Shown one piece after another: positions 9,454 through 61,643 of a DNA stretch of 64,000 nucleotides (position 1 is its first letter; the number at the start of each line of letters is the position of its first letter). Below the pieces are notes generated by a model. It saw only the letters and a list, made by a program, of their open reading frames with translations, was not told the DNA's origin and ran no database searches. The position numbers were made by a program, and so were the translations under genes. The stretch is from Pseudomethylobacillus aquaticus (GTDB lineage: Bacteria; Pseudomonadota; Gammaproteobacteria; Burkholderiales; Methylophilaceae), in NCBI RefSeq assembly GCF_003730115.1, contig NZ_RJVP01000003.1:1-64000 (forward strand), given 5' to 3'.

Positions 9454-9459
9454 TGCTGC

Positions 9460-12486: not shown

Positions 12487-12762
12487 CACCGCTTGGTCTG
12501 CGTGTCGGCATAGCACGTACCACGCAACAGCAGCCACTCACTAGCGGTCAGCGCCATCTCGCCAATCTTGCATTGGGGAACATCACTGTGAGGGCTAGCG
12601 CGACTCCAATATGCCGACCAACAAGTAGGACGCAATAGCAAAGTGTATTGCGCCGGATCAGCGAATCAATTGAACAAGCCTAGTGCGGCGCAATCATGGG
12701 TAGGCGTCGCTATCGAGAGGCAGAGCGAAATAAAAATGGTGTCAGACATTCATGTCACAAGT
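12487..12762. other. Gene-free stretch downstream of the response regulator
   Basis: No ORF with a ribosome site or recognisable product on either strand. The 3' end carries the first copy of the repeat listed at 12731-12747. Confidence 0.5.
12731..12747 (+). repeat. Imperfect direct repeat, copy 1 (left of phage patch)
   Basis: TAAAAATGGTGTCAGAC; copy 2 at 16036-16052 reads TAAAAATGAGGTCAGAC (15 of 17 identical, same orientation). The two copies bracket the holin-methylase-ParB-winged helix patch. Confidence 0.4.
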
Positions 12763-13100
12763 TTAAGCTCCGCCTTGCCTAGATTTGCTCACGTGCGATG
12801 TGACGCTGCGGATCATGGCGGCGACAAACACCGGCTGGCATGCTGCGCTGACTGATTTATTCGGGATGAACGGTGCGCCGATACTCACGGCCTGCTGCAT
12901 AAAGTCATGCGGTCAGGCTTAGGGGAATGCACTGCGGTCGATCCAGTAGCCAATGACGGCCGCCATCGTGATCAGTGAAAGTTTGTAGAGTGAGATGGGA
13001 GTTGCTGCGGGGCTACCTGGTCGATCAGGTACATCAGCAACAGCGTGACCAACAGCCAGTCGGTCATGTGGGGCGGGCGGAATTTAAGTAGGGTTTTCAT
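12763..13100 (-). pseudogene. Decayed phage holin (Holin_2-3-like)
   Basis: An ATG at 13100 opens a frame starting MKTLLKFRPPHMTDWLLV, which is closed prematurely at 12972. After loss of one base in a C run (about 13005-13010), the family sequence continues in another frame: PISLYKLSLITMAAVIGYW, IDRSAFP, then stop-A-stop-PHDF, then PVFVAAMIR, ending at a TAA at 12763. The two in-frame stops each differ by one base from codons that restore the YARP motif I remember from the putative phage holin family in Mu-like and other prophages. One frameshift and two nonsense changes make it non-functional. Family assignment is from memory of that motif pattern. Confidence 0.65.
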
Positions 13101-13179
13101 GGCGCCAGCATAGGCAGCATGAGAGATGAGTCACATTAACGCAGATTAAAATCGAGGTGAGACAGATTTTTAAAGTCCC

Positions 13180-14046: not shown

Positions 14047-14087
14047 AATGCAAGCAGGATAATCAATCGGAGCAGACTTGCACAGAC

Positions 14088-15524
14088 CTAGTTACCATGA
14101 TCCAACATGAAAATTAATGCGGCTCTCCAAGTATCAAATTTAGAAAGCAATTCCCGCTTAGTTGGAATGTGACTACCATGTACTGCGCTCCCGAGCGCAG
14201 ATAGGCTATGACCTATCATAGGATTTGATGCTGCCTGCCCAAGTACTTGAGTTACGCCTCGATCTGCATTTAAAGTAGTAGCTAAGTCACGGGCGTGCTC
14301 AGTTATTTTCTGATCAGTAAGATTCGCGCCTTTAGCAATCTTATTATTGCTAAGCAAAAACCGTATCATTACTCGCTCAACGAAAGCCCTCAGCAGGTAA
14401 TTCGCTGAGAACTCATGTCCATCTACTGGCAGCCGTCTCATTTCAGTCAGCAACCTAATTAATACCTTATCGTCAGGTGCTTTCACCACAAAACTGGTAT
14501 CAACTAGATAGACCCTACTGCTTGGGTCCGCTGTGCTGCGCCTTTGACTAGTTTTATTGGAATTAGGCTGTTCATCAGACTTTTCGGTATTGGCATTATC
14601 ACTTTGGTGGACGCCAGTATTATTTGCATCTGATTGCGAATCTGACGGTTCATGAAAAACGATTTCACTTGGAGGTCCTGGCGGTAAGCGAACTGAAGAT
14701 GGCCTGACATTTCGAGTTGCGAACTCAACTGCGTATGCCCTCCGGTCTGAGGCATCTGTTCTTGAATTTAAGAGTTCATTCCCACCTTCACTCAATGGTA
14801 ATGAATCCAAAACAAATATATGCAGCGCGTGATCTACTTCACTATCCTCAAAGTTATAAATTAATTCCGAGTTGTCACCAAGCCCTAAGACATCACGGAC
14901 TGTTGGCGTGCTTAAGTATCTGCTCAAGGTTGTAATTGGAACCATACTTTTTTGACTGTCCGACAGCAGTCTCAGCTTTGACAGGCGATCTATGATTGCT
15001 TGCGCTAGTATATTTTGTGATGCTGCTATAGCCCTCCCAGGGATGGAGTTGCTTCTTGCTAGACTACGCGCTTGCTCCTGAGCGCCCCATGCTCTAGTAC
15101 CCACCCCATCTAGTTCCCCCAAGTGGCGTCTATCCATCCAAGGAAGGGCCTCTTCCAGATTCTGTAACAGCGATACGGTTATCCGTTCTGGAAGAGGTGA
15201 TTCAATAAGTAGCTTTGCTTTTGCGATTTGTGATTTTATCTGTTCAGTTGGAGCAAGATTTTCATCTGTCAAAAGCTTAAGTGCGCATATTCGACGATTT
15301 CCTTCTACAACTAGGTAATGCCCCTCAATGTCAGCAATCGGAATAACTCCAATCGTCTCAAATGGCGACAAGCCACGAATTGCAACATCTCTGAGTAATT
15401 TTCCGACTTTTTCATTCTCGTATAAGTGCTTCACGATAAGTGATTCATCAAGAATTTGATTGTGCCTTGGGTTTTCACTGTCTAGGTGCAAATTCTGAAC
15501 CGATACTTCAATGTACGTAGCCAT
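14088..15524 (-). CDS. ParB/Srx-domain protein with long helical C-terminal region
   Basis: 478 residues. The N-terminal ParB/sulfiredoxin-like domain (about 5-110) carries the nucleotide-binding type box VVEGNRRICALKLL at 72-85. A helical middle part (about 130-260) follows, then a low-complexity polar linker rich in Ser, Asn and Asp (about 290-335), and a helical C-terminus of ~130 residues ending ...VHGSHIPTKRELL...MLDHGN. There is no HTH like that of plasmid ParB, so segregation is unlikely. Proteins with this domain order occur in phage and defence loci beside DNA methylases. It may be a nuclease or a DNA-contacting partner of the adjacent methylase; function unknown. Confidence 0.75.
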   Translation of the reverse strand: MATYIEVSVQNLHLDSENPRHNQILDESLIVKHLYENEKVGKLLRDVAIRGLSPFETIGVIPIADIEGHYLVVEGNRRICALKLLTDENLAPTEQIKSQIAKAKLLIESPLPERITVSLLQNLEEALPWMDRRHLGELDGVGTRAWGAQEQARSLARSNSIPGRAIAASQNILAQAIIDRLSKLRLLSDSQKSMVPITTLSRYLSTPTVRDVLGLGDNSELIYNFEDSEVDHALHIFVLDSLPLSEGGNELLNSRTDASDRRAYAVEFATRNVRPSSVRLPPGPPSEIVFHEPSDSQSDANNTGVHQSDNANTEKSDEQPNSNKTSQRRSTADPSSRVYLVDTSFVVKAPDDKVLIRLLTEMRRLPVDGHEFSANYLLRAFVERVMIRFLLSNNKIAKGANLTDQKITEHARDLATTLNADRGVTQVLGQAASNPMIGHSLSALGSAVHGSHIPTKRELLSKFDTWRAALIFMLDHGN

Positions 15525-15557
15525 TCACATCCCCATTGCTTGTTGAAAACTAAATTT

Positions 15558-15902
15558 TTATGTTGGCCTTGTGACTGAAACCCCAGGAACAGTGGCCCTA
15601 CCAGTTGCAACATCTTGTCCGCGCTGAGTCAATCGAGCGACAAACAGACTATCGGTAGCAAGCAATTCAATCAGTGTCATTTCTGCCAGCCATGCAAGCT
15701 CTACCCTAGTTTTGTCTGACGATATCAAGTGACCAAGCTGCGCGAGCATTTCATTCAATACAACTTGATTAGCTGTATAGCCTGGCGATTTATCTAGCAC
15801 TTCGAGTATGCGTAGCCGCCGATCCTCAGCAAAAATCCTTTCAAGAGAAACTGATTCAATCTCGCTCCTGGCAGAAAATGTCTGACTCGCTAGCTTATCC
15901 AT
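15558..15902 (-). CDS. Mu-like phage winged-helix protein (gp26-like)
   Basis: 114 residues from the ATG at 15902, preferred because AGAGG lies five bases upstream; an ATG at 15926 lacks such a site. Elements typical of a small protein seen in Mu-like prophages are present: RRLRILEVLDKSPGYTAN, LLAQLGH-type helix (MLAQLGHLISSDKTRVELAWL), a wing, then LTQRGQDVATGRATVPGV at the end. That C-terminal signature is what I recognise. It lies 33 bp upstream of the ParB-domain gene and supports a Mu-like prophage origin for this patch. In intact phages it sits near the terminase genes, which are absent here. Confidence 0.65.
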   Translation of the reverse strand: MDKLASQTFSARSEIESVSLERIFAEDRRLRILEVLDKSPGYTANQVVLNEMLAQLGHLISSDKTRVELAWLAEMTLIELLATDSLFVARLTQRGQDVATGRATVPGVSVTRPT

Positions 15903-16035
15903 TGCTGCCTCTTTGGTGTCTCTCATAGGCTATCTTGTCCGCGCCGCGCCAAGCAGTCGCAGCGAATGGTGCTGCGATGCACTCGCGACCCTAAAGCTCT
16001 CGCATGATGTCAGCAGGCGGCCAGCCCTGCGAATG

Positions 16036-16052
16036 TAAAAATGAGGTCAGAC
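16036..16052 (+). repeat. Imperfect direct repeat, copy 2 (right of phage patch)
   Basis: TAAAAATGAGGTCAGAC, partner of 12731-12747. The AATGnGGTCAGAC core is also reminiscent of ends seen near REP-type transposases, so it could be a dispersed element. Confidence 0.4.
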
Positions 16053-16165
16053 TCCATAAAAACTCAATAAAATCAAAAAATGGCTGTGAATATCGTGTCT
16101 TATCCCATTCGTTCCATCCAATCGGGTACGCCCTACCGCGCTGGCTCGAATACAGGGTTGGGCAC

Positions 16166-16708
16166 TTATTTATGACTAAGATGAGAAAGGTAATCATCAA
16201 GCGAGATAAATTTCGTAGCGGCATCTTTCAGTTCTCTGGCGGCATGCCCCCAGAATACAACGTGAACCGGGATGTTGCGTTTTCTAAGTTTTTCGATGGC
16301 AGGGACGTAATCTGCATCTCCAGCGACAAGGGTAACTTCATCCTTTCCAATAGTGAGGATTTCATATGAGTCCTCAATCATTGTTGCCACAATATCGGTA
16401 TCGATTTTCTTTTCGTGATTTGCAACATTTCGGTCATAGACAACGACAGTAAACCCTTTTCTTTTTGCAATGTCCCAAAGGGAGTCGTTTTTGGGTGGGC
16501 GAGAACCAAAAAGGGTTGCTTTCTTTACCTCGGTTTTGTCGCCCCCTGCGAATTCATACAGTTTTCCGAAGTCAAGCTTCCAGCTATAGTCACATATATC
16601 GGCCTTTACGGCAGTCCAGACATCTGGAGCCTTCCCAGATTTGAATGCCGCGACATGCAGCCCCTCAATCCAGATGTTTGAGTTATCCACATAAAGCAAA
16701 TTTGCCAT
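16166..16708 (-). CDS. NYN-domain (LabA/DUF88-like) putative RNase
   Basis: 180 residues covering one NYN (PIN-like) domain. The acidic residues expected for metal binding are present: Asp8 in YVDNSN, Asp103/Asp105 in KKIDTDIVATM and Asp131/Asp133 in AGDADYVPAI. An AAGGAGA site stands seven bases before the ATG at 16708. NYN proteins are predicted RNases involved in RNA processing or in toxin/defence roles. It is transcribed alone, next to the phage patch, and its composition is more AT-rich than the flagellar genes, so it is probably also acquired. Confidence 0.85.
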   Translation of the reverse strand: MANLLYVDNSNIWIEGLHVAAFKSGKAPDVWTAVKADICDYSWKLDFGKLYEFAGGDKTEVKKATLFGSRPPKNDSLWDIAKRKGFTVVVYDRNVANHEKKIDTDIVATMIEDSYEILTIGKDEVTLVAGDADYVPAIEKLRKRNIPVHVVFWGHAARELKDAATKFISLDDYLSHLSHK

Positions 16709-17199
16709 GCAAAACTCTCCTTTTGTCTAGGCCCAACGTAAATTAGACACCAACTAACGTGCCTAGCAATTTAGCAGGTCTGGTGTATAAACTGGATTCA
16801 CGTTCTGATTTTTTCATTCAATCAATCCTTTATCGTTTTCAAATGCCCCACAAACGCGCATATCAACATAGCAAACACACCAGCACATTCTTAGCCACCT
16901 AAATGGCTTGATCCCATGTTTTTGCCTGCGGGGCATCACACTCATCCACCTGCTGAGCACATATACCTCGCTTGAGTTAAACGATACCTCAGATACCCCC
17001 CGATGTAACACCCCCGAAAGTTAGGGGCTGGGCATGTATAGCGTTTAAGCCACAAGCCAGTAAAGCACACCGCTTCCGCCCGTACCGCCCCTGGCATCAA
17101 GTCTGGAACAGGCACCCTTTCCCTCGCCTGTTATGCGTTTTGCCGACCCACGCGCGGCATTACCATGCTTCATCCCTGATCGCATGCCAGTAAAAGGCC
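16709..17199. other. Gene-free intergenic stretch
   Basis: No convincing gene on either strand. The only structure seen is an imperfect inverted repeat CTAGGC (16727-16732) / GCCTAG (16761-16766) just upstream of the NYN gene, with ACGT at the inner edge of both arms; it could be an operator. Confidence 0.4.
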
Positions 17200-17817
17200 A
17201 TGACTGACAACGTAGAACCCCTTTCCGCCGAAGCCGTCCTGATCGCGCTATCGCGCAGTTATGCCCTGCTTGGCACGGATAGTGCCCTGCGCATGGCCTC
17301 CGCCATCGAAGAGAAGCAGTGGCCTTTGCTGGGGCAGGAGCTGCTGCAGTTACTCAAGGCCGAGCAGCCGCAACACCATGATCACTTGTCGCACTTCGCC
17401 GAAGCCGATGGCGATCCGCAGATCTGGAAAGACCTGCTGGCACGCCTGCTGATGCTCACCTTGCCCACCCTGCTGCGTGAGGACAACCCGCTGGCGAACA
17501 CCAGCATGCAACTGGGTAAACGTGTCAAAGCGGCACGCACCTACGGCACCAGCAATGCATTGGCGCATGACGTGCGCGACCTGGTGCTGCAGATCGATCA
17601 GTACCAGCAGGCACTGGATCGTCAGGAACAAGCCTTCAACCGTGTGCTGGCCATGCTGGTGGAAAGCTTCCGCGAGCAGACCCTGCTGGAAGACTGGCTG
17701 GACCGCGCGCTGCTGCAGTTTCAGCAACTGATGCAAAGCGCACCCGGCAGCCGCACGCGTGAACAGGGCATGCAGCACATACGCGATGCCATCATCAAGC
17801 ACCGCACCACGCGCTGA
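17200..17817 (+). CDS. Conserved-looking helical protein upstream of flagellin, unknown function
   Basis: 205 residues with no signal peptide or membrane segment. It is predicted largely helical, rich in Leu, Gln and Arg, with a coiled-coil-like stretch at about 125-165 (DQYQQALDRQEQAFNRVLAML). AAAAGG lies a few bases upstream of the ATG. Base composition matches the flagellar genes, so it is probably resident. It is co-directional with fliC, 345 bp upstream. I do not recognise the family; helical N-terminal halves of some GGDEF proteins look similar, but no GGDEF domain follows. Confidence 0.6.
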   Translation: MTDNVEPLSAEAVLIALSRSYALLGTDSALRMASAIEEKQWPLLGQELLQLLKAEQPQHHDHLSHFAEADGDPQIWKDLLARLLMLTLPTLLREDNPLANTSMQLGKRVKAARTYGTSNALAHDVRDLVLQIDQYQQALDRQEQAFNRVLAMLVESFREQTLLEDWLDRALLQFQQLMQSAPGSRTREQGMQHIRDAIIKHRTTR

Positions 17818-17876
17818 AGCCGGGACAAGCGCCGTATTCAACAAATACCGCACGTGCATTGAACGCCATTGAAACA

Positions 17877-17916
17877 AACGCATTAAAAAAACGCGTTAAA
17901 ACTAACGCGTTAAAAC
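17877..17916. repeat. Three-copy 13/14-bp tandem repeat upstream of fliC
   Basis: AACGCATTAAAAA, AACGCGTTAAAAC, T, AACGCGTTAAAAC. Each of the last two copies contains the palindrome AACGCGTT. Weaker ACG(C)CATTGA units precede it. It lies about 105 bp upstream of the fliC -35 element, so it may be a regulatory site or only a slippage product. Confidence 0.75.
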
Positions 17917-22386: not shown

Positions 22387-22418
22387 CAGACCCAGCACTC
22401 AGACCCAGCACTCAGACC
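22387..22418. repeat. 13-bp tandem repeat before the second fliK-like gene
   Basis: CAGACCCAGCACT twice without mismatch, followed by CAGACC (about 2.5 copies), between fliT and the next start codon at 22428. No coding frame needs it. Confidence 0.9.
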
Positions 22419-23841: not shown

Positions 23842-24462
23842 ATGCTATCCAATCTGCTGTTTGGTGAATATCGGAAACGTGTTCTGGGGCTTTTGCTGTT
23901 GCATCCCGAGCAAAGCTACCATGTGCGCGAATTGGCCAGGCTTACGCATACCAGTGCCGGCACCCTGCATAAAGAACTCAGCAAACTGTCTGAGGCGGGC
24001 ATTTTGCAGAGCACAAAAGTGGGCAACCAGCAGCGCTACAGTGCAAACGTGCAATGTCCCATTTTCGAAGAGTTGGCTAGTATCTTGCGCAAGACATCCG
24101 GTTTGGTGGAGGTGATAGCGAATGCGCTATCCAGCATCAGCCATCAGATCGAACTGGCTTTTGTATTTGGTTCGGTCGCTCGTGGTGAGCAACAGACCAA
24201 CAGCGATATTGATGTCATGATCATCGGCGACATCGGCTTTGGGGATGTTGTGGGCCTGTTGCATCCATGCCAGACCACTCTCAAACGGGAAATCAACCCT
24301 GTGGTGTATTCCATCGACGGATTCAACAGTCGCATGGCAAAAAACGACTCCTTCTTGAAAGAAGTCCTGCAAAAACCAAAGCTGTTCATAGTGGGTGATG
24401 ATCATGAGCTTGGAAAATTTACTGAAAACCAAACAGCTGCAATCACATCAACCCTCCAGTGA
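23842..24462 (+). CDS. HTH-nucleotidyltransferase (MNT) antitoxin-type protein
   Basis: 206 residues. A winged helix domain (about 5-70: YHVRELARLTHTSAGTLHKEL) is fused to a minimal nucleotidyltransferase domain with GSVARG at 110-115 and SDID at 121-124, the standard metal/NTP site. MNT proteins pair with HEPN proteins as toxin-antitoxin modules, MNT modifying and silencing HEPN. The next gene, overlapping by about 60 bases, encodes such a HEPN partner but is frameshifted. The HTH probably autoregulates through the palindrome upstream. Composition differs from the flagellar neighbours, suggesting insertion between fhlB and fliE. Confidence 0.86.
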   Translation: MLSNLLFGEYRKRVLGLLLLHPEQSYHVRELARLTHTSAGTLHKELSKLSEAGILQSTKVGNQQRYSANVQCPIFEELASILRKTSGLVEVIANALSSISHQIELAFVFGSVARGEQQTNSDIDVMIIGDIGFGDVVGLLHPCQTTLKREINPVVYSIDGFNSRMAKNDSFLKEVLQKPKLFIVGDDHELGKFTENQTAAITSTLQ

Positions 24463-24860
24463 AGCGCTGCTTCGCTTACTGGACGCCATCAAGCGCAATA
24501 TTTCCGACTCCAGGATTGAAGCTGTCAGTGACGAAACAAGATTTGATGCGGCTTACAAGGCCATTATGCAATGTGCGATGCTGGGTTTGTGGTTACACGG
24601 CTATCGCACATCGACAAGTCAGCCGGGACATCATCAAACAGCGATTCAAACACTGCAAACGACACTGGGCACACATGCATCGACGGTCATCGTTCTGGAT
24701 GCCCTGCGCAAGCAAAGAAATATCAGCGATTACGCAGGTGATCCGGGCAGGTGATCCGGTAAGTGACGAGGCCGTTATTGAGTGTATCAAGCAAGCCGAA
24801 ACGCTGTACCAGCAGACGCTAGACTGGATCAGGTCTAATCGCGCCGAATTATCCAGATAA
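24404..24860 (+). pseudogene. HEPN-domain partner, frameshifted by a 13-bp duplication
   Basis: Reading starts at ATG 24404 (or 24398) with MSLENLLKTKQLQSHQPS and proceeds to RNISDYAGD, where an exact tandem copy of GCAGGTGATCCGG (24734-24746 and 24747-24759) shifts the frame and ends it at 24754. Removing one copy restores a 147-residue protein continuing PVSDEAVIECIKQAETLYQQ to the TAA at 24860. The helical fold, size, RN-x-x-DY motif and partner gene identify a HEPN protein, the presumed toxin of the pair. As it stands the last ~36 residues are lost. Loss of one copy by slippage would repair it, so reversible inactivation is possible. Confidence 0.85.
24734..24759. repeat. Exact 13-bp tandem duplication inside the HEPN gene
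   Basis: GCAGGTGATCCGG twice, directly adjacent, no mismatch. Thirteen is not a multiple of three, hence the frameshift in the HEPN reading frame. Confidence 0.95.
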
Positions 24861-36051: not shown

Positions 36052-36057
36052 GCCCGG

Positions 36058-36087
36058 CTCAGCACTAGCCGCCTCAACACTAGCCGC
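36058..36087. repeat. 15-bp tandem duplication immediately before fliR
   Basis: CTCAGCACTAGCCGC then CTCAACACTAGCCGC, one mismatch in 15, ending one base before the fliR start codon. It fills the whole fliQ-fliR spacer and displaces any normal Shine-Dalgarno sequence. Confidence 0.88.
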
Positions 36088-36088
36088 C

Positions 36089-37087: not shown

Positions 37088-40000
37088 TCACTTTCGGAGT
37101 GTGATAAATAACTCTGTTGGGATACTTTCTCCCACAATCATAATATCTTTGAGCTCAAGAACAGCCTTTGCCTGATTTACTTCTTCAGCACTAAAATCAA
37201 ACTGGTTAGATGTGCTGTATCTGTTTAGTTTATTATTCACACGCCAGTAAGAAACGCCTTTATCTAGTTTTATTGCCAAAGTTGTGTTGTTTTTAAAGTG
37301 AACAACCAGTGAACGACTATGCTGTTGGGTTGCTTTAACAGTAGCGTCTATGCCAACTTCCTTGAACACATTAATCAGCACTTGATTTCGCTCTTGCGAA
37401 TTTAGCCAATCTGAATAAATCATGCCCTGTGGCCCCTTATATTCAGAGTAGCTTCGCTTTTCCACGGTATGCACAACAAAATTAACTGATTTCCAATGAT
37501 CAAACCCAACGCACTGTCTCAGTCCAACTACTATCTCTTTCAGCAATCCGATTGAAATTGGGGTGAAAATGTATTTATCGCTATATTCGACAGAGACTAC
37601 TTCATCTGATTCTAATAACCTCTTTAACTCGCTATGTTCTTGTGACAGGTATTCCCAGAATCTTGAGCCAAAGCCAAGGAGTTTGCCGTCGAGTTCGTCT
37701 TTTACCAGAACCTCTTTATCTCCTTGCACAACCACAGGCAATTGAATTTCAGTATTGTTAACGGTGCGAGGGTTTTGTAAATGAGTGGCTTTAGATTTAC
37801 CTCGAACGATAGGGGTACATTTGCCCCACATTTCATTGGCATTCATGAATGCGACATCTGATATCGCCCATGCCCAATATTCACCATTTTGAAATACGAC
37901 TTCTGCAATCACATGGCCATTTTGGGCTTTAGGCATTTCTTTAACAGCAAGTGCATTTATTTGTTCATGGTCAACAAGGCTTCTCAAGGTGATGAGGTCA
38001 TCTTGCGGGTAGCTTTTTAACGCACTTTCTTTGAGTATGAGATTTACTTCTTTTTTGCTAACAATTGCCAAGTCATAAGCCAGTTTTCTAAAATCAGCCA
38101 TCGCAAAATCAGCATGATCTGTTGACTCACCCAAACACATATTGATTTTAGTCACAGTCGGGCGCTTGCCAGCTGAAAAGATGGATTCAGAAAGTGTTTT
38201 AACTTCCACCTCTGACGAGTCACCAAAGTAGCTAATTTCTTTGGGGATGACCAGGCTATTGAGCCAATCACGAGTTAAAAATTGCTGTGCACTTCTGCGG
38301 TTTAATTTGTCAAACTCATGTCTATGTTCAAAATCAAGAAGACACGATGGACAAGCGCTATCACATCCACGAGAACAATCAAGTTGCTCAAATGTTTTCT
38401 CAAAAAGTGGATTGATTAAGTAGTCAATGTTGGAAGTGTAGCCAGCATTATTTTCATCATAAATAAAAATAGACTGAACATAATTACCATCTTCGGTTTT
38501 TATCTCCTGAACTGATGCCCCAAGTTCTGATGCTTGAATACCTAATTCTTCAGCCAGTGCGTTGCGCATAGCAACTGAGACGGTGTTGGCAACCGTTGAG
38601 TCATTAAGCCATTTACCGTTGAGATCTTTTAATTGAATTTCAAAAATATCTGTAAAAGTTTCAAAGCCAAAGCTAATAGATTTCTTTATCATCCATGACT
38701 GATCACTGGCAGAGCACCGGCGTTCGTCTTTCTTTGCAATCAAACGATTATGTCCTTTTTTGGGGCTAAGTGTTTTGGGATACTCTCTGTCTTTTGTCAT
38801 GGGTTCAGCACGACCGCATCCTAAGCATAGTGCATAACCAGTGCCATTTTCGCCTTTGGATTGATAAAATATTTTCCCAGTGTCACTCGAACGATATCTT
38901 CCTAAATTAGGGTTTTTGAGCGGTGACCACTCACCATGAATAGATAGCGTTGGACTTTCAGGTTTAATGAATTTTTGTTTAGTAATGTCATTAGTGACTG
39001 GTTCGTAAAAATCAACTGCGAAACCCGCTGGTTCAATATATTCTGAGAATTTTTTCTCTAAATCAGCTTGGCAATTAGAGCACTTACTTGGTAGCGCACC
39101 TGTAACAGCTGAAGCGCCACATTTTTGGCATTTCCAAAAAAATTTAATGAGTTGAAGTTCATTTTTGGCTTGTAACTCGCTTGCAGGCACATGCCAATTT
39201 AATGTGATTCCTGCAGACTTATAAACGGCACCATCCATGACAATGTCTGAACCAGGAGCGTATTCTCTCAGTGCCGTAACTATATCTCTAGTGGGTAACT
39301 CTGCACGAAAGCGACGGTTATCTTCTCTCTGTTTTGATTCACTATCATATTTTGGTTTATGTTTAAGATTGTTAAATGTCACTAGAGAGGTAGGAAACCC
39401 ATAGCCAGGTAAAAAGCCATAGTTAGCTAAATCACTAAGTAAATATTCCCCTTTGTGGCGCTCTTTACGATATTCCAATGCATTTGCAGCAGGATCGTTT
39501 TGATTAGCCTGCAGTCTTTCTTGCTCCGCAATCAGTGCAGACCATTCTTCATGCCATATCCCCCTAACCTTATTCATCATTCCAGCAGAGTTGGCCATAA
39601 AAGTCTCATATGATTGATGCTCATATGGCGAGTTCTTAACCAGTTGCTCTATCGCCTTTTTATAACTTTCGTTATGTTTGCTGTATTTGTTAAGGTTATT
39701 TACAAAGCTTTTCCAAGGGCCTTCTTCACCAATAAAGAAATCGCCACTCGTCAATTTTAGTGCACTATCAGTACTGCCATTTAAGAACATGCCAAGCAAA
39801 TAAGAATTAATGTGCCTTTGAATAATTACATCACTCGAAAGGGAGACTTTAGGCGTCGGAAACTTACTGCCGAATGCCCAGCTAGTGTTTTCAAAAACGT
39901 GCTGGTCATGCGGATTGGCTTTGCAAAGTGTCACTGCCGCTGACTTGGTTTCAGAACGTCTACCAGCTCGTCCAGCACGTTGTAAATAGTTAGCGGGGTG

Positions 40001-43000
40001 GGGTGGTACATTATTCATTGCTACAAGCTGAATGCCGCCAATATCAATCCCCATTTCCATCGTCGTAGAGCAAGATAGAATATTGAGTTTTCCTGATTTA
40101 AAGTCTTTTTCGTAATTCTCTAAGGTTTTAGATTTTTGCTGTGCAGAATGCTCGGCTGTTTTGTAAAAAGGCGCATTTTCCAACACTTGATCAGCATAGG
40201 TTGACCATATCGCTTGTTGTCTTAGTTCTTGAATTTTTTCTGAGTTCAAAATCCAATTGCGTGCTTCAGTCATAAAGCCTAGTGATGACACATCAAAATC
40301 TCTAGGAAAAATCGGTGCATCAATCTTTTCGCATTTCACACGCTCCCTATTTCTAATCGGGGTGTACGGGCTAAATCCATTTAGCGTAACATCAAGAAAC
40401 CGTCTTGAATATGGGCATATCCAAAGTTGTTTGGGGGCAGTGAAAGAAATGGATTCTAGTTTTAGATTGTATCCACTTGCGCTGTTTTGCAATAAATCCA
40501 CTTTAATTAAATCATTCCACGCTCTTTTTAATATCTCATCAAGTATGTCCTCACCATACTCTGTCTTTGCATCTAAATTGGTCACAATAGACAAGAGTGA
40601 TACTAGGACACTTTTGGAGTTTGATTTTTTTACCGATGGCCATCGCCTTTGATTTTTTGCTTTATCCCTATCCGCTGGAATTAGCCAATTATTTGGTAAT
40701 TTAATTGATAGCCAATTTCGCCAGTCTTTACCATGCAGGTCTAGAGAGCTTCCAGCCCGCACAAAAAAATCCATACAAATTTTTAAAAAGTCACGCCAGT
40801 CATCAATTTTTAAACCAAACTCACTCCACCTTTCAGGTGCTGAATCAATTTTTTGTAATTGTGGGTAGATCAATGAAATTAAACCTAATGTTTCTAAGTT
40901 ATTGCTTTTTTTAGGTCTGCGCGCCAGCTCCCTAAATATAAGCATTTCAGCGACTTTGTCTGCACCATCGGCGGTACCAAAAGTATTTGATTCATAGTTC
41001 TTATATATTTGATGAACCCTATCAAAATCTTGACCTTGGTTACAGATGCTTCTTTTTAAATCAGAAAAGGTAATCCCTGTTGGCACAGCAGATTTGCTCA
41101 AGGCTTGTTGTAATTTTTCTTCAATATCTCTCTTAATGTCCTCGGAAGTATTAGCAAACTTACTGTACAGGTCCCTTAAACTTGCTACTTCAGCACTCTC
41201 TGGCACTTCACTTGATAGTTTATTAATTTGATGGAATACCCAGCTTCTTACTTTTGCTCTTTCAGCGTCTTGTTGTAACTTTGTCGCAATCCTCGCTGTC
41301 CCTTGACGGCTATCATTAAAAGTCAACAAACGACGACCGTTGTATGGCTTGTTGATTGGGTCATCTTGTCCGTCAGGCGCATACTCAAGCAAAGTAGGCA
41401 AAATGCCACTAAGCAAGTATGGTGTGCCTACGCGACCGTTTTTAATTTTGCTTCGTTTGCCGTTAAGAATCGCAGAACATGATGGACATTCAAGCACGTC
41501 TGATGATTGCGTGATTTGAATGGTTAAAGCATCAGGATGATTGGACTCGCAAAATTTTCTTGTTTTTTTATTTATGGATTCAGAAGCTATGACAGCGTCT
41601 TGAAAAGGTCGGTTGGTAATCAGTAACCTAGCTTGTTTTCCTGCATGACTCTCATCAGCATCTTCTTCCTCGTCACCCTCACGCTCTAGCTCAAATTCAT
41701 CAACGGTTTTTTTATCATCAAAGGGAGTAAGTTCAATGCTGTTTTCTTGCGCATTAAGGTAAACCTCACCACAGTCATCGCAAAAAATCAGTTCGTATAC
41801 TGGTGCGCCACAAAGGCAGTGGTTTCTCGGAGATAAATATACTTCACCATAAGGCCAGTCTTTATGAACTAACTTAGGGCTATCTTGATGTTTTTCTGAG
41901 CAATTTTGATCTGCGCAGCCCCATAACCCGGTCATGGTTTGATGGTAAATGTGTGCCCGAAGCGGCAAATACGCTAACCCTTTGGCGTCTTTTGCGCTTG
42001 CAAGCAGGTCTAACCATTGCAAAGCTTGGGTTTGTTCTCCAAGTGTGTATTGTTCCTTTTTGCCGAATAGCCGAATGCAAACATGTCCAATATCTAAAGT
42101 TTGGGTGGGTGACGAGCTGCCTATTTTTTCAGTAGGTGCAAATAACTTTCGGATTTTATAAGCGAGTGAATGCTTCAATAATTCATCATAAAGCGCTTCA
42201 TGTCCTTCACAAGACTGAAGTGCGTTTAGCGATTTTGGCTGATTATTTTGTGGCTCTGCAATGGCAGGTACTTCCCGCACACCATAACGTAACTCAACTT
42301 GGCTGATATCAATCCCACCAACATCTGCCAAGAACCGACGAAGTGACTGACCGGCCTCCCCTTCAGGGTCACCAATGGTTGCAGAGGTTGCAATAAAACG
42401 CACTTCACTGGGCTCAACGTCAAAAGCATGAATTACACGCCTAATCAGTAAAGAAAGCTCTGCCGCCTGCGAGCCCACATAAGAGTGAGCCTCATCAAGC
42501 ACAATCCATTTTAATTTGCCTTTAGACTTTTCAATGATGGGTCTGTCGTCATTGCGCACCAACATGTATTCCAACATGGTCGCGTTAGTGACCAAGATTG
42601 GCGGGGGAGAGGCTCGTAAGGTTTTTCTGTCAGCTACTTCACAAAGATTCTTGCTGCCACCACGCTCAGGTTGCTCTGGTGTGTTTCCATTAAAAAGACA
42701 AAACCTAACATTGCGTTCAAAGTGGCCTGTCCAGGCTAAGAGGCGATCTTTTTGGCTATTGATAAGGGCGTTTAGTGGATACAAAAGCAGTGCTTGCACA
42801 CCAACTAATGGCTTTCTTTGTTGTTCATGCTCTCTTACTAGACAATCAAGAATAGGAATCATGAAGCATTCTGTTTTCCCAGAGCCAGTACCGCTAGTGA
42901 CTACCAAAGATTTTGGTTTGCTATCGCTGAGGACTTGCCATGATTCGAGCTGGTGTTGATAAGGTTTAATGTCTTTAAAAAAACGATAGTCCTCGATCTT

Positions 43001-43309
43001 TGACTTAGTTCTTTTAGCTTCTTGTAGCTTCTCTTCGGTAATATATGGCTTATCTAAAGCATCCACCAATTTTTTTGACAGTAAGCTATTGCTTAATTCT
43101 CCCATGGTTTGTTGGCATGGTCGCCAGCCAAAAACAGGCTCAAATGTCGGGCTGGCAATAAAACTGCCCTCAGCGCCATATGGGCGATTAAACAGTTCAA
43201 ACAGATGCTGCCTTAAAGGCAAATTGCTCACATTGAGCCAACTCATCACACCAGAGGTGGTGCGCTGAGAGAGGTCGTTGATTAAGCCCGTGAAATATTG
43301 GGTCTGCAT
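37088..43309 (-). CDS. druE: Druantia DruE: giant DEAD/DEAH helicase with DUF1998
   Basis: 2073 residues. Walker A SGTGSGKT lies at 139-146, DEAH at 272-275, SAT at 309-311, and the helicase C-terminal motif QRAGRAGRR at about 1108-1116. Several cysteine pairs suggest zinc knuckles (CLCGAP/CDDCGEVY, CPSCSAIL, CQKCGAS/CSNCQ), and the DUF1998 cysteine cluster CSRGCDSACPSCLLDF is near 1645. Size and domain order match DruE, the shared component of Druantia anti-phage systems. It follows druH by 14 bases with AGGA before the start. Composition is strongly AT-rich against the flagellar genes, a sign of transfer. Confidence 0.9.
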   Translation of the reverse strand: MQTQYFTGLINDLSQRTTSGVMSWLNVSNLPLRQHLFELFNRPYGAEGSFIASPTFEPVFGWRPCQQTMGELSNSLLSKKLVDALDKPYITEEKLQEAKRTKSKIEDYRFFKDIKPYQHQLESWQVLSDSKPKSLVVTSGTGSGKTECFMIPILDCLVREHEQQRKPLVGVQALLLYPLNALINSQKDRLLAWTGHFERNVRFCLFNGNTPEQPERGGSKNLCEVADRKTLRASPPPILVTNATMLEYMLVRNDDRPIIEKSKGKLKWIVLDEAHSYVGSQAAELSLLIRRVIHAFDVEPSEVRFIATSATIGDPEGEAGQSLRRFLADVGGIDISQVELRYGVREVPAIAEPQNNQPKSLNALQSCEGHEALYDELLKHSLAYKIRKLFAPTEKIGSSSPTQTLDIGHVCIRLFGKKEQYTLGEQTQALQWLDLLASAKDAKGLAYLPLRAHIYHQTMTGLWGCADQNCSEKHQDSPKLVHKDWPYGEVYLSPRNHCLCGAPVYELIFCDDCGEVYLNAQENSIELTPFDDKKTVDEFELEREGDEEEDADESHAGKQARLLITNRPFQDAVIASESINKKTRKFCESNHPDALTIQITQSSDVLECPSCSAILNGKRSKIKNGRVGTPYLLSGILPTLLEYAPDGQDDPINKPYNGRRLLTFNDSRQGTARIATKLQQDAERAKVRSWVFHQINKLSSEVPESAEVASLRDLYSKFANTSEDIKRDIEEKLQQALSKSAVPTGITFSDLKRSICNQGQDFDRVHQIYKNYESNTFGTADGADKVAEMLIFRELARRPKKSNNLETLGLISLIYPQLQKIDSAPERWSEFGLKIDDWRDFLKICMDFFVRAGSSLDLHGKDWRNWLSIKLPNNWLIPADRDKAKNQRRWPSVKKSNSKSVLVSLLSIVTNLDAKTEYGEDILDEILKRAWNDLIKVDLLQNSASGYNLKLESISFTAPKQLWICPYSRRFLDVTLNGFSPYTPIRNRERVKCEKIDAPIFPRDFDVSSLGFMTEARNWILNSEKIQELRQQAIWSTYADQVLENAPFYKTAEHSAQQKSKTLENYEKDFKSGKLNILSCSTTMEMGIDIGGIQLVAMNNVPPHPANYLQRAGRAGRRSETKSAAVTLCKANPHDQHVFENTSWAFGSKFPTPKVSLSSDVIIQRHINSYLLGMFLNGSTDSALKLTSGDFFIGEEGPWKSFVNNLNKYSKHNESYKKAIEQLVKNSPYEHQSYETFMANSAGMMNKVRGIWHEEWSALIAEQERLQANQNDPAANALEYRKERHKGEYLLSDLANYGFLPGYGFPTSLVTFNNLKHKPKYDSESKQREDNRRFRAELPTRDIVTALREYAPGSDIVMDGAVYKSAGITLNWHVPASELQAKNELQLIKFFWKCQKCGASAVTGALPSKCSNCQADLEKKFSEYIEPAGFAVDFYEPVTNDITKQKFIKPESPTLSIHGEWSPLKNPNLGRYRSSDTGKIFYQSKGENGTGYALCLGCGRAEPMTKDREYPKTLSPKKGHNRLIAKKDERRCSASDQSWMIKKSISFGFETFTDIFEIQLKDLNGKWLNDSTVANTVSVAMRNALAEELGIQASELGASVQEIKTEDGNYVQSIFIYDENNAGYTSNIDYLINPLFEKTFEQLDCSRGCDSACPSCLLDFEHRHEFDKLNRRSAQQFLTRDWLNSLVIPKEISYFGDSSEVEVKTLSESIFSAGKRPTVTKINMCLGESTDHADFAMADFRKLAYDLAIVSKKEVNLILKESALKSYPQDDLITLRSLVDHEQINALAVKEMPKAQNGHVIAEVVFQNGEYWAWAISDVAFMNANEMWGKCTPIVRGKSKATHLQNPRTVNNTEIQLPVVVQGDKEVLVKDELDGKLLGFGSRFWEYLSQEHSELKRLLESDEVVSVEYSDKYIFTPISIGLLKEIVVGLRQCVGFDHWKSVNFVVHTVEKRSYSEYKGPQGMIYSDWLNSQERNQVLINVFKEVGIDATVKATQQHSRSLVVHFKNNTTLAIKLDKGVSYWRVNNKLNRYSTSNQFDFSAEEVNQAKAVLELKDIMIVGESIPTELFITLRK

Positions 43310-43323
43310 GAATATCCTAATTT

Positions 43324-46300
43324 TTATAACTGCACATAGCCAAGGGTTATGCCCCTCGCAATGGTTTTGTCAAAAGCTGAATCAAACCAGTCTTTATCAA
43401 AATTTTTAAGCTTTTTCAAATCAATAAAAGCACTTTCATCTACCAACCATTGGGGTAACTCTTGGGTCAGCGTGTTAATTGCAACTACAAATGGAAAATT
43501 AATAACAGGGTCTTTAAAAGCAAAGTCTTGTAGGCACATCAAGTGTTGATGTTCAGATTGCTTATAAGCCCTAATTTCATTAAAAAAATCACTAGGCCAA
43601 CTGGCTGTTTTAGTACGTAACAGATTTTGTAAGTCGGAGTTTTCACCTTCAAAAATCTGAGATTTGAATACATCAGCAAAGATTTGGGGATGATTTATAG
43701 CCTTTTGCATCTCCTGATTTACAGCCAACTGATTTTTATGCTTAATTACCTCAAACACCATATTCAAAGCTGGATATTCATTAAGCAAGATACTCAGCTT
43801 GTTTTGAAGCAAATACTCGAAATATTGTTGAGCCGACTTTTCTTCTTGATAACGTTGGAATATCTGTTTCTTTAGATAAAAGGCAGCATCCAACCAAGCC
43901 TCTAAACTGACTAGCTCCCACATAAAAGGCAACTCAGCTGCAAAGCGCAAAATAAACTGCGTTGTAAACTTAGACTCCCTTAACGCTAAAGCCGCCATGG
44001 CACGCTTATTTTTTGCAAACAACCGCCACAAATGCAAACTAGTTAAATTTAAATGGCCAAGGCGTTCTGCCAAGTACTCAACATGCTGCCAAGCTGAATC
44101 ATCAAAGTCTGATGTCAGCTCTTCAAGAACAAGGTTTATCGCTGCTTCGCGTTGTTTATCATGCGCAATATTCAATGCAAACTTTAGACTCCCAACGTCT
44201 TCTTCAACCTCTTTTGTGTCATTTCTCAAAGGTAAAATCATTGCTCTAAACTGAATAGAGGAATTGCTTGAGGGGTGAATCATCCATGTGCCATCAGCAT
44301 ACTTGTGAGTAGGAAACCCCCATATACCACTATAAACACCCCCATTGATAGATTGTTCAAGCGTCACAATGTCATCGGACTCATCAATGCGTGTAGCTAC
44401 AACTTCGCAACGCTCAACCACCTCATTGGTAAAGTTAGCTAACTGAGATTGCTTAATCATAAAATAAGGCTCAGCCACCTTATGCTCAAACTCAATTTCG
44501 TACTTGTTGACAAACAATACAAAATCGCTGGCACCAGTCACCTTCAATCTAAACTCCACTTTTGTATCAAGCTGATCTACTGCATATAACAAATCAGCAA
44601 TCTGCTCTTTATAATCAATCAGCCTAATTTCAACTCTAGAGCTATCTTTTTCGCGTTTAAGTCTGATGGTTGTTGGCTCAATATTAATGCCACCTGTGTC
44701 TTTTAAATTGAGCTCAATTTCAACATGGTTTCCTTGACTCAATAATGAAACCACACGCACCCCATAAAGTTGACGCAGGCTTAGCGTTTTTCGTTTTTCA
44801 ATTCGGTGACTATCGCCGTCAAACGCCATTACCCCACTCGATGGAAAAGGTAACTGAATGATTGCAGCTTTCGGGTTGTGTGCCCAATAAATCTCCAGCT
44901 TGATAAGTTCTTGCGGCGTGGATGAGCCTGTATAGCTGCACTCAATCGTTACGGAATCGCCATTGATAAGTGGCTTGATACTAACTTTGTCATCCAAGCA
45001 TTTCACGTTGGAAATTTGCCATTTGTTAAGCAATAACTTCCCGTGGCTTGCGTCACTGCCTGGCAGAATTTGATAGCTTGCGTCTGATGGTAATACCGCT
45101 AATTTTGCACCCCAAACATGGCTGCTTTGCTCTTTCACGCTTAAATTGAGCGGCCCATAAACCCCTAATTCAGGATTAAGTGGTTTGTTGTCTAAGTTTT
45201 TACAAAATACACTGGCGGTTGATTTTTTATGTAACGACGTGGCGCTAACATATTTAACGACCTGAGGGAAACCACAGAAGGCAATGGCAGGTTTTTGAAA
45301 AACATGCCATATGCGATTACCCATCAGCGCAAAATCTTCTTCATCCGCATCCCCACAACTAGGCTTAATCTCATATTGCTCATCCTCATCACTTAAACAA
45401 GCGACTGGCACATCAATGACATAACATTTCTTCTCACGGTCACGCGACCAAGCAATTGGCTCAAACGAACTCATTTCACTCAAAGCTTGTAAATGAAATC
45501 GCGCAGGCACCACAACATAAAGGCTAGGCGATCTAAACTTACCACCACCTATTTTTAAAAACTTACCTTCATCACCCTCACTATCGGCATCAAACACCCA
45601 AGGAGTGTCATCATCCAGTTCAAAGCCGTTGGCTAAGGTAATATTTTTGCGCACATTGTCAGCGTTTTTAAGTATGGCAACATGCTCCTCATGCGCGTGT
45701 TTAAAAAGTGGTGTTGTCTCAAGATTAAAACGATAGTTAAGTTGGCCTGCTAATCTACCAAGTGTGATTTCATGTTTTTCAGCTTGATTGCTCACCTGAA
45801 GCAGCATGACCCTCGTGATAAATCCTTCAGCAATATCAAACGCTTTGATTACTGACTCTTGATCAATATTGTTCTTGGGAAAATCAATTCGCGCCTCGAC
45901 ATTAAAAATACCATCAAGGGTGTGTAAGTAGCGTTGTAGCGTCAAACTAAAAGCGAGTTTGTCAGCTTTAATTTTGACACCTTCTTGGATAAACCTTTCC
46001 AACACACCACGTGCATTTTCGTCGTCCATAGGCAATGGAAAACTATCACGCCAGTTAGATTTGTGTTGATCCAGTTTCTCAAGCGGGTTTAATGCGCCGC
46101 TAAGGTTGGCATCATTTTTAAAGTGCACAAAGGTGATAATAATTTCTGCTAACAAGCTAAAAATTAAAGGCTGTCGGTAAGATTTAGGAAGCTCACCGCG
46201 ATGACTTTCAATAATGCTTAAAATGCTTTTCTCATCAGGAAAGCCAAGATTGACTGTGTCTTTAAGGACGCGATTTAAAAGGCGATTTAAATTACCACGG

Positions 46301-46758
46301 CCACTGGCAATAAGATTCAAAGGCAAACCACCTTGACTAGCAATATTTCCAATGAACTTTAAATTTCCAATATCTGCATTTAAAGCTAAGTTCCATTCAC
46401 GGAACCCACTTTCAATCATCTCCGAGCGTGTAACACTGTTTAATTCAGAGTAATCAATTCCAATCGATGTAAAAATCGGGTCCCATGACATACCTGTGCC
46501 ATCATATTTGCGCTGCCACCAATTGGCGGCGTACAAGACAAATAGAGGAGAAAAATATGATGACTTCTTGCAGATTTCGTCAATTTGGTAATGACTCAAA
46601 TAAATCTCTAAATTTGAGGCCAAGCAATGTTGCAAGCTCATGAACTCTTCGGCTGTCATCTTGTAGGAATAGAGTGGTGCACCATTAAGAAGACCTTCAT
46701 TGAGACCTTGTCGATTATTCTTTGCTAAGAAAGCATTTCTCCATTCGTCAAATCTCAT
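43324..46758 (-). CDS. druH: Druantia type III protein DruH
   Basis: 1144 residues from the ATG at 46758, where GGGGAG precedes the start; an upstream TTG is less likely. No catalytic motif or membrane segment is recognised. The protein is large, mostly soluble, with a beta-rich middle and a helical C-terminal third. A ~1.1-kb-residue protein of this type (STY4851/ECs_5259 family) directly before a DruE helicase defines Druantia type III. Its mode of action is not known. AT-rich like druE. No third gene intervenes, so the system looks complete. Confidence 0.85.
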   Translation of the reverse strand: MRFDEWRNAFLAKNNRQGLNEGLLNGAPLYSYKMTAEEFMSLQHCLASNLEIYLSHYQIDEICKKSSYFSPLFVLYAANWWQRKYDGTGMSWDPIFTSIGIDYSELNSVTRSEMIESGFREWNLALNADIGNLKFIGNIASQGGLPLNLIASGRGNLNRLLNRVLKDTVNLGFPDEKSILSIIESHRGELPKSYRQPLIFSLLAEIIITFVHFKNDANLSGALNPLEKLDQHKSNWRDSFPLPMDDENARGVLERFIQEGVKIKADKLAFSLTLQRYLHTLDGIFNVEARIDFPKNNIDQESVIKAFDIAEGFITRVMLLQVSNQAEKHEITLGRLAGQLNYRFNLETTPLFKHAHEEHVAILKNADNVRKNITLANGFELDDDTPWVFDADSEGDEGKFLKIGGGKFRSPSLYVVVPARFHLQALSEMSSFEPIAWSRDREKKCYVIDVPVACLSDEDEQYEIKPSCGDADEEDFALMGNRIWHVFQKPAIAFCGFPQVVKYVSATSLHKKSTASVFCKNLDNKPLNPELGVYGPLNLSVKEQSSHVWGAKLAVLPSDASYQILPGSDASHGKLLLNKWQISNVKCLDDKVSIKPLINGDSVTIECSYTGSSTPQELIKLEIYWAHNPKAAIIQLPFPSSGVMAFDGDSHRIEKRKTLSLRQLYGVRVVSLLSQGNHVEIELNLKDTGGINIEPTTIRLKREKDSSRVEIRLIDYKEQIADLLYAVDQLDTKVEFRLKVTGASDFVLFVNKYEIEFEHKVAEPYFMIKQSQLANFTNEVVERCEVVATRIDESDDIVTLEQSINGGVYSGIWGFPTHKYADGTWMIHPSSNSSIQFRAMILPLRNDTKEVEEDVGSLKFALNIAHDKQREAAINLVLEELTSDFDDSAWQHVEYLAERLGHLNLTSLHLWRLFAKNKRAMAALALRESKFTTQFILRFAAELPFMWELVSLEAWLDAAFYLKKQIFQRYQEEKSAQQYFEYLLQNKLSILLNEYPALNMVFEVIKHKNQLAVNQEMQKAINHPQIFADVFKSQIFEGENSDLQNLLRTKTASWPSDFFNEIRAYKQSEHQHLMCLQDFAFKDPVINFPFVVAINTLTQELPQWLVDESAFIDLKKLKNFDKDWFDSAFDKTIARGITLGYVQL

Positions 46759-46863
46759 TTTTCTCCCCAAATCATCTAGAGCACTCGGTAGTAGTGCTTA
46801 ATTTTCTCTGCCGTCAGCTTTTTGTGAGTTTTTAAAAAGCCTTCAAAATTACCAAAAGCATAC

Positions 46864-47607: not shown

Positions 47608-47822
47608 GGCCATTCTGTGATGGCCAAACCGATTTTTGGTAGCGACCAGAAAGATATTTAACGAGTCGTCTATATATCAGGTTTGCTGTCAGGTTTGATT
47701 GTTTTCGGCGCGATGTTTTCTTATTGGATACCTCGCTAACCGCTCACCGATTTGTTTCTCAAACAACAAGCGGACACCTCATTAGCACCCCCGCTTAAAT
47801 ACCGCTTGCTTGGCAGTTAAAA

Positions 47823-50066: not shown

Positions 50067-50167
50067 AGCGCGGCGCTGTAGTGCCTGCGGCATGGGGATT
50101 AGGAGCGATGGGCCATTAACGGCTTGGGTGGGGGGAAAGCCGATAACGACCCACCGTCCTAAAGTTG

Positions 50168-50258
50168 ACTGTTAAATCTTGTTAGTAAATCTTGGTGCTG
50201 AATCTCACTGCTGAACCTTAACCCTGCACTTGAGCGCTCAAGTTAGGTGCTCAAGTTA
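50168..50258. repeat. Seven-copy degenerate 13-bp tandem array between tag and flgL
   Basis: Consecutive units: ACTGTTAAATCTT, GTTAGTAAATCTT, GGTGCTGAATCTC, ACTGCTGAACCTT, AACCCTGCACTTG, AGCGCTCAAGTTA, GGTGCTCAAGTTA, with a possible eighth. Adjacent units share most positions (the last two differ at two bases). A perfect 16-base palindrome ACTTGAGCGCTCAAGT (50228-50243) lies across units five and six and may act as a terminator stem for the converging tag and flgL genes. Confidence 0.75.
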
Positions 50259-50321
50259 AGTGATAGCACACCCGTCTGCAAGGCCCGCTTTCATAGCTGA
50301 CGACAGCTTAGCTGGCCTGCA

Positions 50322-59503: not shown

Positions 59504-59531
59504 TTTAGTGGCGAGTGTTTAATGGCGCGTG
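59504..59531. repeat. 14-bp tandem duplication before flgD
   Basis: TTTAGTGGCGAGTG then TTTAATGGCGCGTG (12 of 14 identical), in the 50-bp flgC-flgD spacer, about 12 bases upstream of the flgD start. Confidence 0.75.
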
Positions 59532-59950: not shown

Positions 59951-59973
59951 GCTGGACTCCTTATCGTGGCAGC

Positions 59974-60000
59974 GGGCTAGCGGCTGGGGGCTAGCGGCGA
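59974..60000. repeat. 14-bp tandem duplication before flgC
   Basis: GGGCTAGCGGCTGG then GGGCTAGCGGCGA, filling most of the 51-bp spacer between flgB and flgC. Confidence 0.8.
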
Positions 60001-60001
60001 C

Positions 60002-61573: not shown

Positions 61574-61614
61574 CTGACGTAACAGGCAATGCGGCGAGCA
61601 TTGCGCCATTCAAG

Positions 61615-61640
61615 GCATGAGGTCAACGCATGAGGACAAC
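61615..61640. repeat. 13-bp tandem duplication covering the flgM ribosome site
   Basis: GCATGAGGTCAAC then GCATGAGGACAAC (12 of 13), ending three bases before the flgM ATG. Each copy contains a GAGG, so the Shine-Dalgarno core is duplicated. Confidence 0.9.
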
Positions 61641-61643
61641 ACC

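Follow-up and report, generated by a model that had tools for sequence, protein, structure and literature searches.

In the non-coding DNA of Pseudomethylobacillus aquaticus, a methanol-using bacterium, and of its closest sequenced relative, the sister species Methylobacillus flagellatus L1B (~95% DNA identity), short head-to-tail duplications are far more frequent than expected by chance, and their unit length has a real mode at 12–16 bp. A genome-wide mutational bias that is high in this lineage is the probable source of these arrays. Such duplications were first seen in a 64-kb stretch (the window), which is the start of a 316-kb contig of the 2.55-Mb P. aquaticus genome. For the counts below, spacers of 15–600 bp between genes predicted by a simple codon-usage caller were scanned, with the exclusion of spacers shorter than 15 bp, longer than 600 bp or containing long ORFs; the caller overlooks genes in AT-rich islands, and the spacer set depends on its calls. 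An array was considered strict when its second copy was nearly full, and a looser definition was counted in addition. The sampled share of the P. aquaticus genome amounts to about one quarter, and three small contigs (L019–L021) were excluded from the strict counts.

Tandem arrays in the window

The initial annotation had named seven arrays at flagellar genes, and all of them were recovered with TRF or a period scan, no more than a few bases from where it had placed them. Its gene names also held: Pfam agreed for flhC, flhD, fliR, flgD, flgM, fliC and a FliK-type domain, and rod-type proteins were found at the flgC and flgB places. The arrays of the window are the following:

9422–9460, minus strand: array on the flhC side, 13 bp in 3.0 copies, 88% (TRF)
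17872–17916, plus strand: array on the fliC side, 13/14-bp unit (TRF: 14 bp in 3.3 copies, 87%)
22387–22418, plus strand: fliK-like array, 13 bp in 2.5 copies, 100% (TRF)
24734–24759, no strand given: exact duplication of a 13-bp unit between convergent genes
36054–36088, plus strand: fliR array, 15 bp in 2.3 copies, 90% (TRF)
47677–47697, no strand given: repeat with a 12-bp period in a non-flagellar spacer
50236–50262, no strand given: 13-bp duplication in the spacer separating a methyladenine glycosylase gene from a flagellin-like gene
59504–59531, minus strand: flgD array, 14 bp in 2.0 copies, 85% (TRF only, missed by the period scan and outside the strict-array counts)
59974–59998, minus strand: flgC array, a 14-bp duplication (period scan only)
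61610–61640, plus strand: flgM array, 13 bp in 2.4 copies, 88% (TRF)

The repeats had been described as lying just 5' of start codons, which is true of four arrays, all within 15 bp of the start: fliR (0 bp), flgM (3 bp upstream of the ATG at 61644), the fliK-like gene (9 bp) and flgD (~11 bp, from the coordinates). It does not apply to the flhC array, located between the flhD stop and the flhC start (27 bp to the start, 7 bp to the stop), nor to the flgC array, located between the flgB stop and the flgC start (23 bp to the start, 3 bp to the stop), both of which are nearer the upstream stop codon, and the fliC array is found 245 bp 5' of the fliC start codon. Moreover, three arrays of the window (24734–24759, 47677–47697 and 50236–50262) are situated away from flagellar starts.

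Comparison with M. flagellatus L1B revealed different degrees of conservation. The fliR array, which takes up most of the fliQ–fliR spacer, is also present in the sister with point changes, the flgD array (between the flgC stop and the flgD start) is identical except for one base, and both copies of the flgM array are kept with a single base changed. The flgC array is longer and rearranged in the sister, which also carries a different, 11-bp array at the flhD–flhC place, different arrays of 15 and 17 bp in the fliC upstream spacer and a 13-bp array at another place in the spacer between the methyladenine glycosylase and flagellin-like genes. The array between fliT and the second fliK-like gene is missing in M. 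flagellatus L1B, and only one copy of the 24734–24759 unit, the junction of which has no microhomology, is present there.

Several other features of the window were recorded. Within the flgM repeat, the first copy contains an ATG in frame with flgM, an alternative start 27 bp upstream (61617–61643), and it is this copy that differs by one base in M. flagellatus L1B. A protein with a polymerase-beta-type nucleotidyltransferase domain (PF18765/PF01909) is encoded inside the flagellar region at 23842–24462, and the spacer that follows its gene holds the 13-bp duplication found only in P. aquaticus. Between the flagellar clusters, at 37088–46770, two very long minus-strand ORFs (2073 and 1148 aa) were rejected by the codon-usage caller, and this stretch is possibly a foreign island. 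No genes were called at 12500–17200, between the flhDC and fliC regions, where several ORFs are found, mostly on the minus strand.

Array density, unit length and turnover

Tandem duplications were far above the level of shuffled spacers. P. aquaticus carried 37 strict arrays in 326 spacers with a total length of 47.5 kb (47,535 bp; shuffle mean 1.5), or 68 repeats in 325 spacers under the looser definition (mean 6.8 and maximum 12 in 30 shuffles), and 28 of the strict arrays remained in 43.0 kb outside the window. M. flagellatus L1B showed 29 strict arrays in 35.8 kb (35,803 bp) of spacer (shuffles 1.4). As controls, 24 sets were used, consisting of 11 bacteria outside the family (including E. 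coli) and 13 Methylophilaceae (including three Methylobacillus species); each set is small taken singly, and together they contained 11 strict arrays in 97.9 kb (97,947 bp). The resulting densities per 10 kb of spacer were 7.8 for P. aquaticus (p = 4e-10, rate test against the 24 control sets), 8.1 for M. flagellatus L1B (p = 2e-9) and 1.1 for the control sets, the counts of the two sisters being non-independent, with arrays in common. The excess over the control sets was present in all three spacer-length classes. E. coli K-12 had one strict array in 16.1 kb of spacer, and the quiet relatives included M. caricis (one in 8.2 kb), M. arboreus (none in 4.0 kb) and Methylovorus menthalis (none in 6.9 kb); M. 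glycogenes, a thin sample of only 2.5 kb, had one strict and four loose arrays.

A recount of flagellar-region loci covered 75 of 80 loci (65 in an earlier grouping), the other five being the sister and loci already among the control sets. The 40 loci from Methylophilaceae and like taxa contained 10 strict arrays in 54.9 kb (1.8 per 10 kb; p = 1e-5 against P. aquaticus). The 35 loci from other betaproteobacteria contained 15 in 32.4 kb (4.6 per 10 kb), which is no significant deficit relative to P. aquaticus (p = 0.09) or M. flagellatus L1B (p = 0.10); 24 of these 35 loci had no strict array, and eight of the 15 arrays came from 3.5 kb of spacer in Herminiimonas (L051), Undibacterium hunanense (L082) and L079. 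The Herminiimonas MAG and U. hunanense each had three strict arrays in ~1.0–1.3 kb of spacer, and array-rich lineages besides the P. aquaticus/L1B pair may exist. With all controls pooled (36 arrays in 185.3 kb, 1.9 per 10 kb), the density in P. aquaticus was four-fold higher. Array density thus looks lineage-dependent and patchy in betaproteobacteria, with the P. aquaticus/L1B pair high without being unique, and the recount of the other betaproteobacteria lowered our confidence in the genome-wide mutational reading a little. Arrays with shorter units were also encountered, namely a 7-bp unit repeated ~18 times in a P. aquaticus spacer (L012, 17870–17995) and a comparable 8-bp array of more than 20 copies in M. 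caricis (L187, from 8164).

The unit length was examined with exact-match runs of at least 9. Outside the window, P. aquaticus had 11 runs with units of 7–11 bp, 29 with 12–16 bp and 8 with 17–21 bp, and the corresponding numbers for M. flagellatus L1B outside the flagellar region were 6, 19 and 7. Detection accounts for part of the rise from 7–8 bp, since a unit of that size, present twice, is too short for a run of 9, but not for the fall beyond 16 bp. The 24 control sets showed a weaker 12–16 bp mode (6, 14 and 2 runs), and there may thus be a fainter general mode of this length in bacteria. Coding DNA showed no clear excess over the controls. Per 100 kb, there were 3.0 runs with a 12-bp unit and 4.5 with a 15-bp unit in P. 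aquaticus, and 4.5 of each in M. flagellatus L1B; one control pool had 3.2 and 2.7, respectively, a second had 3.1 and 4.0, and the loci of other betaproteobacteria had 10.3 and 6.6.

A check of the same spacers in the sister species revealed that both the arrays and their copy number change between P. aquaticus and M. flagellatus L1B. Of 182 spacers on the P. aquaticus contig, 159 could be paired, and 22 pairs were array-bearing: ten in both species, eight in P. aquaticus only and four in M. flagellatus L1B only, some of the one-sided pairs being shared arrays that fall under the threshold in one species (fliR, flgM). Different arrays were present in matching spacers of both sisters at flhC, fliC, 59951–60001, 288902 and 50067–50321. 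Spacer length was unequal in 17 and equal in five of the 22 array-bearing pairs, as opposed to 46 unequal and 91 equal among the 137 array-free pairs, with median differences of 12.5 and 0 bp, respectively, and aligned-base identity was nearly alike in the two classes (0.921 and 0.924). This contrast in length is partly due to array-bearing spacers being longer on average; among array-free spacers of at least 100 bp, 42 of 76 had equal length in the sisters.

The sister spacer alignments contained 60 indels of at least 4 bp per 1,877 substitutions, and 15 of 49 gaps of 4–40 bp fell at 12–16 bp. A strain pair of E. coli showed no indel of at least 4 bp in 4.7 kb with 103 spacer substitutions, where ~3 would be expected; this control is small and carries little weight, and as the two strains are 5 bp apart in the total length of one of the two stretches, a gap there may have been split by the aligner. 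Clean recent events were few: of the clean sister indels of at least 4 bp, four of 17 non-coding ones were exact duplications (three of 5 bp and one of 13 bp) vs none of 11 in coding DNA. Exact copies were found where the counterpart is plainly single or absent (22387, 24734, 83635 and 92932 in P. aquaticus, and a 15-bp array near 18 kb in M. flagellatus L1B), whereas several arrays common to both sisters carry mismatches; decay has not reached every shared array, as those at 175511 and 236994 are exact in both. No outgroup is near enough to polarise individual gains and losses.

Junctions, repair genes and competing explanations

The two genomes together contained 40 perfect arrays, with shared arrays counted in each. 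Of these, 13 had just 0–1 bp beyond two units, eight ran at least 4 bp past two units and 19 were 1–3 bp short; this tally, like those of start and stop distances, sister turnover and array-to-gene distance, was partly made by eye. The reckoned expectation in the absence of microhomology is ~56% with 0 bp and ~28% with 1 bp of excess, and the group of 13 is near it. Clean junctions with zero homology were seen in two cases, the 24734 duplication and the 15-bp array of M. flagellatus L1B. The junctions appear to be a mixture that includes a homology-free part.

Several candidate determinants were rejected. A five-fold raw excess of CTAG in the arrays shrank to 6 vs 2.4 in P. aquaticus when each array was counted once, and no k-mer was outstanding in both genomes once multiple testing was allowed for, the best being CTAA in P. 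aquaticus (11 vs 4.5) and AT-rich words in M. flagellatus L1B; GGCC was missing from the arrays of both genomes. Hairpin stems in arrays were no longer than those in artificially duplicated random spacer pieces (simulations reached the observed mean in 41 of 300 cases for P. aquaticus and 176 of 300 for M. flagellatus L1B). Error-prone copying, suggested by mismatched copies at clean indels, was discarded because the arrays with a single-copy counterpart are exact and several shared ones are mismatched, so that decay explains most of the mismatch. A single homologous regulatory repeat was rejected in view of the varied places of arrays in other Methylophilaceae, although some of these arrays are in the flgD–flgE spacer.

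An inspection of repair and topology genes revealed none among PolA, TopA, MutS, XseA, RecJ, ExoI and Ku that would account for the duplication bias. MutS is intact in both sisters (mutS1 match over positions 1–840 of 840, no stops), as is XseA, and RecJ is intact in P. aquaticus. PolA is full-length in both, with intact 5'-nuclease residues: it is identical at E. coli positions 13, 20, 63, 77, 78, 81, 113, 115–117, 138, 140, 185 and 188, which we take to be the residues of this activity. ExoI was found in none of ten family genomes, including those of P. aquaticus and M. flagellatus L1B, and as it is missing from all ten it cannot account for a difference within the family. A 1.3-Mb family member (G013) was without a mutS1 match, unlike nine other genomes tested.

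Among the competing explanations, ordinary replication slippage at pre-existing short direct repeats in weakly constrained spacers, with this lineage retaining more of a universal product, fares best, and we regard it as possible though on balance doubtful. A minority of arrays do look like its products: it fits the eight of 40 perfect arrays that run at least 4 bp past two units, including the fliK-like array, the unit of which is bounded by a 6-bp repeat, given its third part-copy. In line with slippage, the copy number of multi-copy arrays differs between the sisters, sparse duplications of ~15 bp occur at varied places in other Methylophilaceae and clean arrays of 8–17 bp in other betaproteobacteria, and the controls have a faint 12–16 bp mode. 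However, the 13 arrays with just 0–1 bp of junction homology do not fit, strict arrays are about seven times denser than in the 24 genome-wide sets of controls, a contrast present in every spacer-length class, and slippage alone leaves the drop beyond 16 bp without a reason.

A changed DNA topology or topoisomerase I behaviour is improbable. It would resemble the topA R168C mutator of E. coli, which produces repeat-independent head-to-tail duplications of 2–19 bp at hotspots in galK with no significant change in the point-mutation rate (Bachar et al., PMC6954433); the product type and size range match, as units of a few to ~20 bp, duplicated head to tail, are also found in P. aquaticus and M. 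flagellatus L1B. Ten of the 22 array-bearing spacers have arrays in both sisters, several of them different, and the cases at flhC, fliC, 59951–60001 and 288902 resemble hotspots, although shared ancestry may account for arrays being present in both. In the laboratory mutator, however, the TopA substitution is causal, while R168 and R35 are conserved in P. aquaticus, M. flagellatus L1B, ten relatives and E. coli, and the bias is thus not that mutator despite the like products. The other catalytic residues checked were also unchanged; at E. coli position 799, a residue kept in the 11 other sequences is changed from E to D in both sisters. Furthermore, no concentration of arrays was found in divergent spacers. 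Finally, the P. aquaticus/L1B arrays have their mode at 12–16 bp, occur in a natural lineage, and constitute evolutionary rather than experimental evidence.

The initial annotation had also raised the idea that spacer length is tuned to set translation of flagellar subunits, and this idea was not supported. Retention of duplications before flagellar genes by selection, whether for the length of the spacer or for the ribosome-binding context, is in our view very unlikely. In its favour, the flagellar spacers of the window were about three times denser in strict arrays than the others (7 in 3.2 kb vs 30 in 44.4 kb, p = 0.01), the flagellar region of M. flagellatus L1B also had the higher density (8 in 5.3 kb vs 21 in 30.5 kb), and the flagellar-region loci of other betaproteobacteria were denser than the genome-wide controls. 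Yet both within-genome comparisons are post hoc, since the choice of region preceded them, and the two sisters have a common ancestry. Outside this pair, strict arrays were no more frequent in the flg core than elsewhere in the loci concerned (other betaproteobacteria, 8 in 21.2 kb vs 7 in 11.2 kb; Methylophilaceae and like taxa, 6 in 32.1 kb vs 4 in 22.8 kb). No enrichment of arrays within 15 bp of start codons was found (P. aquaticus 4 vs 5.2 expected; M. flagellatus L1B 2 vs 2.1), and the result for array ends within 15 bp of stop codons was inconsistent (6 vs 5.2 and 6 vs 2.1, respectively). Most P. aquaticus arrays are in spacers of non-flagellar genes, and arrays and spacer lengths differ between the sisters. 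With start-codon placement random and neither a motif nor a hairpin, little points to a regulatory role of the arrays.

Strict arrays ~1.1–1.2 kb beyond the flgC start, by position in the flgD–flgE spacer, were observed in six of the 75 flagellar-region loci (L030, L051, L059, L084, L094 and L097), a recurrence that counts in favour of the selection reading. Their units of 12, 13, 15 and 17 bp are unlike in sequence, except for one common to L084 and L097, and this spacer is a possible recurrent array site.

Ku was patchy in Methylophilaceae, with matches above the cut-off in six of 60 genomes and four of 24 genera. Ku-dependent end joining after staggered breaks and transposon target-site duplication both yield homology-free tandem copies of narrow length, but an origin of the arrays in either is extremely improbable, since Ku (PF02735) had no match in the P. 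aquaticus or M. flagellatus L1B genomes, which makes classical end joining unlikely, the one Ku-bearing genome sampled (G046) had no arrays in 2.2 kb, the copies of the arrays listed are adjacent with no element found between them, and the unit length is spread across 12–16 bp.

The genome-wide mutational bias is the reading best in line with these data. The earlier proposal of a lineage mutational process favouring this duplication length is upheld by the strict densities of the two sisters relative to the control sets, by the persistence of the 12–16 bp mode outside the window and by the change of arrays between the sisters, although the weaker mode in the controls and the density in other betaproteobacteria argue against the process being unique to the lineage. 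According to this explanation, non-coding stretches of ~12–16 bp would be duplicated head to tail unusually often, and the arrays would afterwards decay as point mutations accumulate, with copies being added or lost; duplications would also arise in genes, from which selection presumably removes them. The duplication step may begin at a nick, with synthesis that displaces the old strand over about a dozen bases, after which the displaced strand would be rejoined rather than trimmed, or alternatively two near nicks would be filled in and sealed. We infer such an event because several simple duplications lack end repeats and Ku is absent, and we put forward religation of a displaced strand at a nick as a tentative suggestion, itself unlikely to be right. 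The explanation as a whole appears to us close to evenly balanced between right and wrong.

Relation to known systems

Bacterial variable-number tandem repeats differ in copy number among relatives. The arrays described here share this variation; in contrast to such repeats, they mostly comprise 2–2.5 copies and are scattered over many unrelated spacers. The striking part is the birth of arrays and not the expansion of a few of them. The birth of tandem repeats from non-repeated sequence is termed unknown in the Discussion of the topA R168C study (PMC6954433). A survey of prokaryotic genomes, in the passages available to us, reports that close direct repeats and longer-unit tandem repeats are over-represented in intergenic regions of some prokaryotes, with intergenic tandem units of 6–11 bp in Methanococcus voltae, M. 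aeolicus and Natrialba magadii (PMC4060949). The repeat excess in those passages is intergenic and not genic, as in P. aquaticus and M. flagellatus L1B; however, the tandem classes end at 11 bp, Methylobacillus is unnamed in the main text and turnover between sister species does not appear in these passages. Our search, which did not extend to subscription papers such as the M. flagellatus genome paper, found no description of the duplication pattern in Methylobacillus.

It is conceivable, though we think it rather improbable, that a heritable tandem-duplication mutator has become fixed in some natural bacterial lineages, P. aquaticus/L1B being one of the strongest cases: a repair or topology step would copy a patch of ~12–16 nt back into the chromosome with no need for homology, and the same patch size would be faintly visible in many bacteria. 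Such a mutator would be in evolution what the topA mutator is in the laboratory, though with another cause, and a specific patch size, if confirmed, would indicate a single enzyme. The presence of repeats in spacers close to genes does not imply a regulatory role. P. aquaticus and M. flagellatus L1B, set beside the quieter M. caricis and Methylovorus menthalis, would allow the birth of repeats to be measured directly.
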